A stretch of 29,594 nucleotides of DNA from a virus. The notes beneath the pieces are model-generated. The model did no database searches. It was not told the origin of the DNA and saw only the letters and a program-made list of their open reading frames with translations. Location: positions 1-29,594 of IMG/VR virus record IMGVR_UViG_3300010938_000112. The stretch is one strand, 5' to 3'. This document shows positions 3,674 through 11,415 of this stretch, in pieces (within the stretch, counting starts at the first letter, position 1; every line of letters starts with the position of its first letter). The position numbers were made by a program, and so were the translations under genes.

Positions 3674-3882
3674 TCCACATACTCCGCTTGTACTCTCATG
3701 AGTACCGCGTCATGGTTAATAAAATCTGGATCTGCGCTTACGATCTTGATGAAGCGCAGTCCAGTATTCTGCTTTTCAAACATGAAACGCACAGCAGCTT
3801 CCGTGCTGTAAAGATCGTAACAATTTTTTACACCCATCAAGTCACGAGTAGTGACTCGGAAATCTACTGTGACGCTTCGCAT
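3670..3882 (-). CDS. Hypothetical protein, 70 aa
   Basis: This is a small unknown protein with alternating beta and helical segments (VTVDFRVTTR, then STEAAVRFMFE, then RFIKIVSAD). GGAGG four bases before the ATG gives a firm start. The start overlaps the stop of the HTH gene upstream (TAATG) and its end overlaps the next gene (ATGA), so it sits in the middle of a coupled operon. Its fold pattern is loosely similar to its 66-residue neighbour, which may reflect shared small-protein architecture rather than homology. Confidence 0.65.
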   Translation of the reverse strand: MRSVTVDFRVTTRDLMGVKNCYDLYSTEAAVRFMFEKQNTGLRFIKIVSADPDFINHDAVLMRVQAEYVE

Positions 3883-4376
3883 TATGCCTCCACACCAAGT
3901 TCGCGCTTGATGATTCGGCTGATGTAAGATCGGCTGACTTTACGACGAAAGCGGCGAGCAATCTTAGCTACGCTGAAACCCTCGCAAAACAAAGCAACCA
4001 TCTTCTCGATCTGAGCAGCAGTCAGTCCGCGCTTTTGAGTCTTAGGATACGTTCCTGCTCTGATAGGGCGCAGGTTAACTACTCGGTTATCGGTGCTCTT
4101 GCGATTCTTGTGCAAGATGACCGTGTTCGTCAAAAGCTTAGAAATCAAGGTGCCGGTTGCACCTTCATTCAAGGCCTCTCGAACAGCGATAGCACGAGCT
4201 ACTACCAGCTTCTTTCCGCGATACCGTACAACAGTGTAACCATGTCTATCGCTGCCTACAGTGCGGAACTTGCCGTCTGAGCCTTTCTTTTGAACTGTTC
4301 CGTTTTTCAAGAAACGATAGCTTCGATCTTGAGCAAGCTTAACTAAAAGCTTATTGTTTTGTGCTGATGTGACCAT
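3882..4376 (-). CDS. HNH-like protein with C-terminal helix-turn-helix
   Basis: This 164-residue protein has an HNH_3-like segment at about 45-104 (RGKKLVVARAIAVRE, then LHKN with H89 and N91, DN at 96-97, NL at 101-102). The usual NH dyad reads LH, so one conserved position has changed. Residues 118-158 form a basic helix-turn-helix typical of resolvase or transposase DNA-binding domains (SVAKIARRF, SRSYISRIIKRE). It is probably a homing endonuclease or a domesticated DNA-binding derivative. AGGAGGG precedes the ATG. Compare the canonical HNH-AP2 gene at 999-1517, which keeps the intact dyad. Confidence 0.75.
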   Translation of the reverse strand: MVTSAQNNKLLVKLAQDRSYRFLKNGTVQKKGSDGKFRTVGSDRHGYTVVRYRGKKLVVARAIAVREALNEGATGTLISKLLTNTVILHKNRKSTDNRVVNLRPIRAGTYPKTQKRGLTAAQIEKMVALFCEGFSVAKIARRFRRKVSRSYISRIIKRELGVEA

Positions 4377-6840: not shown

Positions 6841-7692
6841 TTAAAATTTCAGCTTTAGTGCTGAAGAGTTTTTAATTCCATCTCGTTTCTTATCGTAAGA
6901 TCCCAAAGTCGTAGTGATACTTGCGTGACCAGCAAAATCAGCGACATTTCGCGGAGACTCACCGTTTTCCAGTAACTGAGAGATTGCTGTGGCGCGGCAT
7001 GAGTGTGGGGATACCCTGCGAGTAACCCCAGCAAGCTTTGCATACTTTTTTACGGTATTGAAGATGGTGTGGTCTTTAACGCCAAGCAAAGAGCCAAAAG
7101 GTCTGGCAACTGTTTGATAGTTCACCAAAGCTTGTTGAAGTTTGGGGTGACAAGGGATCATCCTGAACTTTCCGCCTTTACCAAAAACCCTGATGACCAT
7201 CACGCCGTCCACCAAAGATAGATCTGAATCTAAAAGTTGAGCGGCTTCAGATCGACGAAGGCCAGCAAAGAATAAGAGGCTAAGTATCAAATGATCCCGA
7301 ACATCGCGCTCAGAAAGCTTAAGTATCTTTTTGACTTCTTCATCGGTAAACGCCTGAGTAGGATCTTTAACAGAGGTCTTGGGAAGCTTTACACCGGCAA
7401 ATGGATCTGTGTTCAGTACGCCTTGTCCTCGCACGAAGTCTGTAAAGCTCCTAATAGCTGACATCTTTCGATTAATAGAAGCCGGAGCAAGTCCAGAAGC
7501 TACTAGCGAGTCTCGATACTCTAAAACATGCTGCCTGGTGATGTCCGTGGCCTCGTTAGGCCCAAACCTCATAAAAGCCTGAAGATCCTTCTGATATGCC
7601 TTTCGCGTATTCTCAGAACCTAATCCCATCAAGAACGCGGTGACATAATAATGTATTGAAGTTGTACTTGGCGCCACTGATAAACCTTGCAT
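6841..7692 (-). CDS. Tyrosine recombinase (XerC/D-like integrase)
   Basis: This 283-residue protein has an N-terminal SAM-like core-binding domain (about 10-105) and a C-terminal catalytic domain with the full active site: R146 in GLRRSE, K172 or K175 in GKGGK, H230 and R233 in HSCRA, H256 in GHASI, and nucleophile Y266. Length and layout match XerC/XerD rather than lambda-type integrases with an arm-binding domain. It may resolve genome multimers, act at a host dif-like site, or integrate the phage; no attachment site is recognisable next to it. GGGAGG four bases upstream fixes the ATG, and a promoter-like element lies at 7710-7738. Confidence 0.92.
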   Translation of the reverse strand: MQGLSVAPSTTSIHYYVTAFLMGLGSENTRKAYQKDLQAFMRFGPNEATDITRQHVLEYRDSLVASGLAPASINRKMSAIRSFTDFVRGQGVLNTDPFAGVKLPKTSVKDPTQAFTDEEVKKILKLSERDVRDHLILSLLFFAGLRRSEAAQLLDSDLSLVDGVMVIRVFGKGGKFRMIPCHPKLQQALVNYQTVARPFGSLLGVKDHTIFNTVKKYAKLAGVTRRVSPHSCRATAISQLLENGESPRNVADFAGHASITTTLGSYDKKRDGIKNSSALKLKF

Positions 7693-8467: not shown

Positions 8468-9148
8468 TTACCCTTGGATCGTTGTTGGACTGGTCCATCC
8501 CAAAGCCTCCCCGATAATTGGCAACTCTTTTACGAAGAGATCTCTGATGGCCAATGCGATTTCTTGGTGTTCTTTTTGAGTACCGTTTCCACAGCGTAGC
8601 TGCAGATAGTGAATCCAACTACGAATAGAGCCGTTCATGTACAGGCGCGTGGTGGTAGACAAAGGAAGAAGGAATCTGGCTTGCTCTTTGGCTATACCTC
8701 TTGCTAAGGCCTGTTTATACTTTTCCATACACTGCTTGTTATGTTCTTCTTGTAGCCGTTGAAACCAATCTTTGTCATGCTGCTCCATGTCGTCATTTGA
8801 GTTCTGGCGATTTTTTGGATCTTGTGATCTGGCTTCGTAAACTTCAATACTTTGAACCGCTGCATATCTTTGCGAAAACTCTTGAAAAGAAAACGAGCGA
8901 TGTCGCAAAATCTGAGCAGCGATTGCTCGTGAGGTTTCAATCTCAAATACCATATTTGCCATCTCAAAGATAGAAACATGACCATGCTTCAAGCAGTAAT
9001 CTAAAAGTTTGGTGTTACCAGAAGTTTGATTTGCAGGGTTAGAGACTCTGGCACAATACATAATCAAATTTTCTGATCCGACTGACGAAAGTTCTTTTTT
9101 AAGATCTTCGTTGCAGATTACAGTTTTAGCTATTAGTCGAACTTTCAT
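8468..9148 (-). CDS. thyX: Flavin-dependent thymidylate synthase ThyX
   Basis: This 226-residue enzyme makes dTMP from dUMP using methylenetetrahydrofolate and a reduced flavin, supplying thymidylate for phage DNA replication. The diagnostic RHRx7SxR motif is at 82-94 (RHRSFSFQEFSQR), followed by the usual tyrosine. A second conserved region, with NGSIRSWIHYLQLR and acidic/glutamine residues, lies near 172-200 and contributes substrate-binding arginines. Length is typical for phage ThyX. The ATG has GAGG six bases upstream and overlaps the preceding gene by 23 bases. Confidence 0.95.
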   Translation of the reverse strand: MKVRLIAKTVICNEDLKKELSSVGSENLIMYCARVSNPANQTSGNTKLLDYCLKHGHVSIFEMANMVFEIETSRAIAAQILRHRSFSFQEFSQRYAAVQSIEVYEARSQDPKNRQNSNDDMEQHDKDWFQRLQEEHNKQCMEKYKQALARGIAKEQARFLLPLSTTTRLYMNGSIRSWIHYLQLRCGNGTQKEHQEIALAIRDLFVKELPIIGEALGWTSPTTIQG

Positions 9149-9902: not shown

Positions 9903-10149
9903 TTTCAGCCTCCCATTTGCGCATATCTACAAAAACGCCGTAGACTCTGCGGTGCATTTTTTGGTTGTCTTTGTTTAAAAGTGTAGTATCAAACTGTGCC
10001 ATCACAAAAAGAACTTTTCTTAACGAAAAGTGATTAGCCCAAAATTCGGCATCTTTTCTAGATGTGCAAACTTCAGACCAGAGGTTTGAATTAGTGATCT
10101 TGATCTTATCAGAATCAGGAGATTGAATCAAAATCTTTAGGTTATCCAT
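9889..10149 (-). CDS. Hypothetical protein, 86 aa
   Basis: This is a small unknown protein. A GTG start at 10161 is possible, but the ATG at 10149 follows GAGG by about ten bases and overlaps the aminotransferase stop by 8 bases, so I favour it. It contains a hydrophobic segment (RKVLFVMAQF) in the middle but no clear transmembrane helix. It is the first gene downstream of the aminotransferase and probably shares its transcript. Confidence 0.65.
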   Translation of the reverse strand: MDNLKILIQSPDSDKIKITNSNLWSEVCTSRKDAEFWANHFSLRKVLFVMAQFDTTLLNKDNQKMHRRVYGVFVDMRKWEAENVQQ

Positions 10150-11062
10150 TTCTTTTAACACCTCGAGTGTCTAATCTTAGATTGTATAATGCCGCTCTAG
10201 TTACCGATCCAGGTTGACCGTCGCCGATCTCTCTTCCATCAACTTTAATAATTGGAACCACTTCTACATAAGTTCCAGTCATAAAAAGTTCATCTGCCGT
10301 ATAAATATCTGCTTTAGTTAATCTACGTTCAATAACTTGATAGCCAGCTTCTGAAAGCTTACTTGCTACGTACATGCGAGTCAAGCCAGAAAGTATTGAG
10401 CCTGTCTGAGGTGGAGTAAATACTGTTTTATTCTTGACCATGAATATATTTGCGATGCTAGCTTCCACAATATAACCGTCATTGTCGCAAAAAAGAACCT
10501 CGTCTACACCCTCGAACTCATGCTTGCAGTTGTGAAGAACCGCATAGTTTGAAGTAGTTTTAGCTTGCATCTGATACTGAGGGTAGCCGCGAGGAGTGGC
10601 TGAAATTCTAGCTGTGATACCTACATCATTATTGGGTGCGTTTAAAGGAAACGCGTAGATATCCATGTTTATGGCAGAAGTCTGTGCTCTGACCGATTCC
10701 GCATCTTGAGTTGTATAAGCAATTGGGCGAAGGTAAAGATCACCTCCACCACAAGATTCTACAAGCTCATTACAGGCCTTAATAAGTTCCGCCTCAGTGT
10801 AAGGAATTTTTATGTTTAAGATTTTTGCTGAGTTAAAAAGTCGTTGAATATGCGAAGCTAAAAGCCAAATCTTAGTTGAACCGTCTTCTTGTCTGTAAGC
10901 CCTAATACCTTCCCAAACAGCAGGTGCGCCATAATGAAGAACAAAGTTTAAACTGTCTATTGCTGTTTTCTTAGATGAAATAGTTCCGTTCGACCAAACG
11001 CGCATTTGAGATGCGCTTTTTTGTCTAAGTTTTTGAAACTTTGCTTTTAATCCGCCGCTCAC
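10142..11062 (-). CDS. ilvE: Branched-chain amino-acid aminotransferase-like (fold type IV PLP enzyme)
   Basis: This 306-residue protein matches class IV aminotransferases. NFVLHYG at 39-45 and EGIRAY at 51-56 form the substrate side, LRPIAY at 111-116 is conserved, and K168 in QAKTTSNY is the PLP-binding lysine. E200 in VEASIANIF and SILSGLTR at 222-229 complete the cofactor site. It should interconvert leucine, isoleucine or valine with their 2-oxo acids; D-amino-acid transaminase is the main alternative. I chose GTG at 11062 (GGAGG four bases upstream); ATG 11110 and TTG 11119 would add residues not typical of the family and have poorer ribosome sites. The gene is preceded by a structured leader and a promoter. 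Confidence 0.88.
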   Translation of the reverse strand: MSGGLKAKFQKLRQKSASQMRVWSNGTISSKKTAIDSLNFVLHYGAPAVWEGIRAYRQEDGSTKIWLLASHIQRLFNSAKILNIKIPYTEAELIKACNELVESCGGGDLYLRPIAYTTQDAESVRAQTSAINMDIYAFPLNAPNNDVGITARISATPRGYPQYQMQAKTTSNYAVLHNCKHEFEGVDEVLFCDNDGYIVEASIANIFMVKNKTVFTPPQTGSILSGLTRMYVASKLSEAGYQVIERRLTKADIYTADELFMTGTYVEVVPIIKVDGREIGDGQPGSVTRAALYNLRLDTRGVKRNG

Positions 11063-11226
11063 ACTTCCTCCAAAAACGTACTGATCAGACGCTACTCTGA
11101 CTAGAACCATCTTCGCCAACCGCGCCTACGTCCAGGCTTAGTACGCGTCTCCAGTAAACCGCTCCCCACCACGGATTTTCACCGTGCCAAAGCTTAGTCC
11201 GTTTACAGCTTTCCGCGACGCGGCAC
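11063..11226 (-). promoter_or_regulatory. Structured 5' leader RNA upstream of ilvE (candidate riboswitch)
   Basis: Counting leader base 1 as 11226, the RNA can form a nested rod. P1 pairs 5-10 with 78-83 (CGCGUC/GACGCG), P2 pairs 21-26 with 68-73 (GUAAAC/GUUUAC), P3a pairs 34-38 with 62-66 and P3b pairs 41-45 with 53-57 (CACGG/CCGUG, loop UGAAAAU). Two more hairpins follow: 90-93 with 100-103 and 127-131 with 138-142. ACUAAGC occurs twice (29-35, 85-91). Alternative pairings exist: the 5' GUGCC with GGCAC, and CGCG at 80-83 with 103-106, so switching is possible. The ribosome site GGAGG is at 156-160. The GGUGAAAAUCC hairpin superficially recalls cobalamin leaders, but the rest of that consensus is missing. 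Confidence 0.6.
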
Positions 11227-11230
11227 ATGA

Positions 11231-11244
11231 CCAGTTTAAACTGG
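11231..11244. repeat. 14-bp perfect palindrome, candidate operator
   Basis: CCAGTTTAAACTGG is a perfect palindrome covering the -10 box of the leftward promoter at 11233-11261. A repressor bound here would block the aminotransferase leader transcript. Confidence 0.55.
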
Positions 11245-11261
11245 ATTGAAAAATAGGTCAA
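11233..11261 (-). promoter_or_regulatory. Promoter for the structured leader and ilvE
   Basis: On the minus strand TTGACC (11261-11256), a 17-base spacer and TAAACT (11238-11233) form a sigma70-like promoter. The predicted start is G at 11226, exactly where the structured leader begins. A perfect palindrome overlaps the -10 box. Confidence 0.5.
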
Positions 11262-11371
11262 GGACTGAATTTAACTTTTGTAGGTCAACCACTCGGCGGC
11301 GGAACTTTGTCCACCTTGGATTTGATTTTGATTTGTGTTTTAAAATTTGTCTTACCTTATTTTGATTAAAT

Positions 11372-11415
11372 GAGAAGCTAGCTTAAGTTGAATAAGCTTA
11401 AGCTAGTAGCTTCTT
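11372..11415. repeat. Large inverted repeat / hairpin
   Basis: The arms at 11372-11387 and 11397-11415 pair over about 15 positions, including one terminal wobble pair, with a three-base bulge and a nine-base loop. The core arms read CTAGCTTAAG and CTTAAGCTAG. No T tract follows on either strand, so it is not a standard terminator; an operator or mRNA-stabilising hairpin is more likely. Confidence 0.6.

Follow-up and report, generated by a model that had tools for sequence, protein, structure and literature searches.

The leader of the ilvE-like aminotransferase gene in a 29,594-nucleotide virus sequence (the window, meaning the whole stretch of DNA that was analyzed) belongs to a family of structured RNAs that is common to dozens of otherwise unrelated phages, precedes very different genes, and is previously uncatalogued, lying outside Rfam 15 and the open literature. 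The family comprises 53 matches in 47 sequences, including uncultured phages, bacterial-genome contigs, and named phages. On balance, we lean toward a general, modular phage noncoding RNA that is independent of the gene behind it and would bind a host or phage factor. That phages with little else in common conserve this fold, which lies outside Rfam, is a sign that its function is needed by many phages, and the presence of members in cultured Pseudomonas and Ochrobactrum phages makes deletion, pull-down, and RNA-seq experiments feasible at once.

The window locus and the conserved fold

The aminotransferase gene is the first of a minus-strand run of about 28 ORFs that extends over ~11 kb to position 8. 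The plus strand encodes a sigma-region-4 protein, a head protease, a major head protein, and contractile-tail genes, and the capsid relatives of the window phage are SPO1-like phages. The minus-strand run also contains thyX (8468-9148) and a tyrosine integrase gene (6841-7692), and this thyX/integrase/aminotransferase run belongs to a phage with an SPO1-like head. A strong inverted repeat (AGCTAGCTTAAGTTGAATAAGCTTAAGCTAG, positions 11368 to 11410) separates the divergent transcription units.

The initial annotation placed a leader at 11063 to 11226. The leader is real, but that span takes in the Shine-Dalgarno sequence; the RNA itself runs from 11227 to 11077 on the minus strand (covariance model R1, 60.9 bits, E = 3.4e-12, search within the window) and ends 15 nt 5' of the aminotransferase GTG (start at 11062) (Table 1). 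Its GC content reaches 56%, compared with about 35 to 40% in its surroundings. As annotated, it begins at a predicted promoter start, since the RNA lies at the expected +1 of TTGACC-N17-TAAACT. The related records L003, L004, L009, and L010 keep TTGAC at the same distance from the RNA. A GTTCCGC(CGC) motif upstream of the promoter (11290 to 11305) occurs at the same place in L004, L009, L010, and L029 and is perhaps an operator, kept even in L029, which is without the RNA.

Table 1. Coordinates of the window locus and of csrA-domain genes in other records (window positions unless a record is named)
Feature	Position	Strand	Remarks
Promoter	11233-11261	-	-35 TTGACC 11261-11256, 17-nt spacer, -10 TAAACT 11238-11233; sigma-70-like
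Structured RNA, window member	11077-11227	-	covariance model R1 match
P1 5' strand UGUGCCG	11221-11227	-	pairs with 11083-11077
CG linker	11220-11219	-	between P1 and P2
P2 5' strand UCGCG	11214-11218	-	model alignment
Internal loop, 5' side GAAAGCU	11207-11213	-	(near-)invariant across the family
P3 5' strand GUAAAC	11201-11206	-	partner GUUUAC 11159-11154
Variable P4 domain	11160-11200	-	hairpin CACGG..CCGUG
P3 3' strand GUUUAC	11154-11159	-	
Internal loop, 3' side UGGAGA	11148-11153	-	conserved
P2 3' strand CGCGU	11143-11147	-	
Variable P5/P6 domain	11102-11142	-	about 70 nt less than in L003
P7 hairpin GUCAG-AGUAGCGU-CUGAU	11084-11101	-	conserved octaloop
P1 3' strand CAGUACG	11077-11083	-	directly abuts P7
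Shine-Dalgarno GGAGG	11067-11071	-	from sequence
ilvE-like class IV aminotransferase gene	10142-11062	-	Pfam Aminotran_4, E = 1.7e-45
csrA-domain gene	L032: 7393-7575	+	
csrA-domain gene	L111: 1735-2106	+	
csrA-domain gene	L109: 2734-3105	+	
csrA-domain genes	L107, L110		

The first relatives carried related aminotransferases (L003, 98% identical; L004, 71%), and in both the promoter is kept, as is part of the leader. The capsid gene led to two more, L009 and L010. Alignment of the leaders by hand yielded P1, P2, P3, and P7, with P1 appearing as GUGCUG/CAGCAC, GUACGG/CCGUAC, GUGCGGC/GUCGCAC, and GUGUGG/CCACAC and P3 of L004 as GCGAU/GUCGC. In the architecture of the family, P1 closes both ends and is followed by CG, P2, a conserved loop, an optional P3, variable domains, and the P7 hairpin, which has the loop NGU[A/C]GCGN and is stacked directly on P1. 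The conserved loop, GAAAGC(U).../...(UGG)AGA, is invariant or nearly so across the family, and the RNAs are about 100 to 230 nt long.

At the level of sequence comparison, this common fold is proven by compensatory changes. In an alignment of 17 members (A5), 99.7% of the cells were paired, double changes occurred at 15 of 21 pairs, and the covariation score was 0.714, compared with 0.177 for shuffled alignments, none of which equaled it; slid controls gave 29 to 45%. The 53-member alignment, which was fitted to the model, had 99.0% of cells paired, double changes at 20 of 21 pairs (P2 included), and a covariation score of 0.689 versus 0.185 for shuffled alignments (reached by 0 of 500 shuffles). 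RNAalifold returned the same four helices without prompting. P1, P2, P3, and P7 thus covary among homologs, in line with the structured leader that the initial annotation had proposed. P2 had been fixed by the first search pattern and, once freed, appeared as GUGUG/CACAC and GCACG/CGUGC. P7 and a complementary P1 were located at the predicted place in 31 of 33 distinct matches to the first kind of pattern, compared with 3 of 990 for shuffled downstream DNA; as P1 and P7 (and not P3 and P2) were part of the parsing rule in this count, the argument rests on the shuffled-DNA control together with P3 and P2. In POI1126, PotUPM1, Orimi01, Persinger, D14H, and L098 (a bacterial-genome sequence), P2 is reduced to a minimal hairpin (e.g., GCGUG-GAAAGCAGA-CACGC), which shows P3/P4 to be optional and the GAAAGC...AGA loop to be the part that stays fixed.

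Single-sequence folding did not set the window leader apart from dinucleotide shuffles (z = -0.64), and L004 was not significant either (z = -1.69). The folding energy of one sequence would have dismissed the element, and comparative evidence was decisive. The nested rod of the initial annotation is a minimum-energy rod without P1 and hence unlike the conserved fold, and its mutually exclusive pairings gain no support from the homologs. The ACUAAGC repeat pointed out there is absent as a conserved feature from L003, despite the 98%-identical aminotransferase, and is probably due to chance.

The window copy itself forms six of seven P1 pairs with one C.A mismatch, compared with a perfect P1 in L003 and L004, and four of five P2 pairs. 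Both sides of the conserved loop are present, and the P7 loop AGUAGCGU conforms to NGUMGCGN, with P1 following immediately. The P5/P6 domains of L003 and L004 are about 70 to 100 nt longer. The window copy may be reduced or slightly decayed.

Members and their genomic settings

A conserved-core pattern, for which we estimated about 0.03 chance matches, matched two bacterial-genome contigs (an Armatimonadota MAG and Gammaproteobacteria F7). A looser pattern matched 32 viral contigs, and a pattern with P2 free matched 18, six of them new (L092 to L097). Among named phages, the covariance model matched Ochrobactrum phage POI1126, Pseudomonas phages PotUPM1 and Orimi01, Persinger, AUS531phi, vB_PaeS-D14H, vB_PaeS-D14P, and one more P. 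aeruginosa phage. Matches were found in 1 of 201 genomes from the phylum of bacterial genome G009 and in 3 of 274 from the class of G010, one of which (L099, from genome G048) is without P7 and is a doubtful member. L010, for which the model E value was only 0.02, was treated as a relative solely by its position and P1. The window leader had no BLASTN match among named phages and no exact 20-mer match among viral contigs, and the canonical member gave only chance-level matches to plasmids and 5,426 E. coli genomes.

The genes that follow the RNA in sense encode a GroEL-like chaperonin, a RecA-like protein, a helicase, a dNMP kinase, IlvE, and many unknown proteins. In about a dozen members, P1 is followed by the start codon after 14 to 31 nt. 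Of the next long ORFs, 38 are in sense and 7 antisense; of the previous ones, 30 share the strand of the RNA and 18 are on the opposite strand. A -10 hexamer is enriched just upstream (at least five of six matches in 33% versus 7%). The RNA usually, though not always, opens a transcription unit. The Persinger copy is located 3' of the integrase gene, with the next gene, gp27, convergent to it. Phages carry one to three copies, with two or three in 11 of 34 positive records and neighboring or tandem copies in L041, L042, L054, and L096.

A few members are located in tRNA arrays. In POI1126, the RNA has tRNA-Met 172 nt before it and tRNA-Gln 6 nt after it, and in L004 and L010 tRNA-Met is placed between the RNA and the aminotransferase gene. 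Just upstream of the RNA in Orimi01 (L100, about 800 to 1000), a stretch with GGGTTCGAATCCC and a long acceptor-like stem resembles a tRNA, although ARAGORN made no tRNA call there. In L029, a 65-aa ORF (3825-4022, plus strand) sits right behind the promoter, in the place of the RNA.

Relation to known RNAs

Neither the window nor its relatives match any Rfam 15 family at the gathering threshold, and a permissive Rfam scan of the canonical member L060, sub-threshold matches included, was empty; the description of the leader as unrecognized therefore holds. A window match to group II intron D1-D4-2 (RF01999) was sub-threshold and at chance level (E = 4), the canonical member had none, and this assignment was rejected. 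The conserved sequences appear in no open-access paper; phage RNA candidates have been catalogued automatically on a large scale, and a prior listing in the subscription or preprint literature is possible. The RNA is unannotated in the named carrier phages, and several copies overlap "hypothetical protein" calls (e.g., XAI70718.1 in Orimi01).

Like GOLLD and ROOL, the family belongs to the large structured noncoding RNAs of bacteria and phages. GOLLD and ROOL also occur close to tRNAs, but they are several times longer, and the family had no Rfam match to either. Phage T4 RNA C (species 1 RNA) is likewise a stable phage RNA in a tRNA array and has AGUAGCGU twice; we rejected it as a member, as its model score was only 11.6 bits and its architecture is not that of the family. 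Its relatives (ZX13, LC53, and a Proteus phage) are without P1-CG-P7 and consist of one long hairpin plus a T-arm. The relatives of RNA C occur in tRNA arrays of other Straboviridae (L113, 1409-1547, minus strand; L114 to L116), and the T-arm is conserved; the middle part of RNA C is a single long hairpin.

HK022 put (putL/putR) is also a phage RNA behind early promoters, independent of the gene and present in few copies per genome (PMC9378689). The put RNA is about 70 nt with two stem-loops, acts in cis, and does not have to be tethered to the transcript (PMC9378689). The family RNA differs in its length, its closure by P1, and its other conserved loops, a distinction drawn from the description of put, and some of its copies are without a sense gene behind them.

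Candidate functions

The fixed core and the conserved loop pair suggest that a common factor would bind there. In the mechanism that we slightly favor, the RNA would fold while being transcribed, either where a phage transcription unit begins or within a tRNA array. The core of P1, CG, P2 with the GAAAGC/AGA loop, and P7 with the NGUMGCGN octaloop would bear the freely varying P3 to P6, and the loop pair would bind the same host or phage factor whichever gene follows. The RNA would thus be a discrete molecule, possibly released from its transcript, that acts in trans or during transcription, rather than a gene-specific switch. Whether it is a new, compact RNA machine by which many tailed phages of different bacteria take over a common host process (RNA polymerase, the ribosome, RNA decay, or a defense system), the core being fixed and the side domains free to evolve, seems to us evenly balanced. 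We rank the discrete RNA module first, antitermination of the put type second, and an element of the mRNA end third. The strong bias of the next gene toward the sense strand, like the 14-to-31-nt spacing, is equally compatible with a cis-acting leader.

Under put-like antitermination, the nascent RNA would bind RNA polymerase in cis and carry it past the terminators and pauses of the operon. The location of the RNA at transcription-unit starts regardless of gene identity, the one to three copies per phage, its position next to repressor or early recombination operons in Pseudomonas phages, and the roughly 11 kb of minus-strand ORFs that it heads in the window are all consistent with this possibility. 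We nevertheless consider it a live but rather unlikely alternative, given the larger, P1-closed RNA (as compared by description), the antisense orientation of the next long ORF in 7 of 45 cases, Persinger included, and tandem copies that would be superfluous.

Still less probable is a 5' element for mRNA stability or translation, in which P1 would seal the 5' end against decay and present the Shine-Dalgarno sequence just behind it. P1 does begin near the expected +1 and often lies 14 to 31 nt before a start codon, but such an element would not need conserved loops and fails where copies precede tRNAs, another copy, or convergent genes.

An RNA that titrates or is controlled by CsrA is a live but quite improbable reading. 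The Gammaproteobacteria contig L032 and four P. aeruginosa phages ("bci", CsrA E = 1e-24) do have a gene with a CsrA domain close upstream of the RNA, and L043 and L044 have one at most about 3.5 kb away. GGA motifs are hardly enriched (4.75 per RNA versus 4.45 in mononucleotide shuffles), only 22 of 52 members have GGA at the P7 loop, and in the short flanks searched no csrA was found near most members. A CsrB/RsmZ-type CsrA sponge, which has many GGA motifs in hairpin loops, was rejected because the count is near the shuffled level. In the four P. aeruginosa phages, the products of these genes bear the name "bacteriophage control infection" or that of a global regulatory protein.

The gene independence of the RNA excludes a pathway-specific switch as the function of the family. 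We therefore give almost no credence to a riboswitch or attenuator that controls ilvE in response to branched-chain amino acids, 2-oxo acids, or PLP: the RNA directly precedes ilvE in the window and L003, but the more distant L029, in which the gene order is the same and the aminotransferase 54% identical, has no copy, tRNA-Met intervenes in L004 and L010, the next gene faces the RNA in Persinger, and other members precede unrelated genes with no single-pathway association. These points leave the initial proposal that the leader controls the aminotransferase by sensing an amino acid, a cofactor, or the translation state unsupported. Between tRNA-Met and the aminotransferase gene, L004 (2900-2985) and L010 (7260-7320, minus strand) carry a GC-rich self-complementary element that may be another structured RNA.
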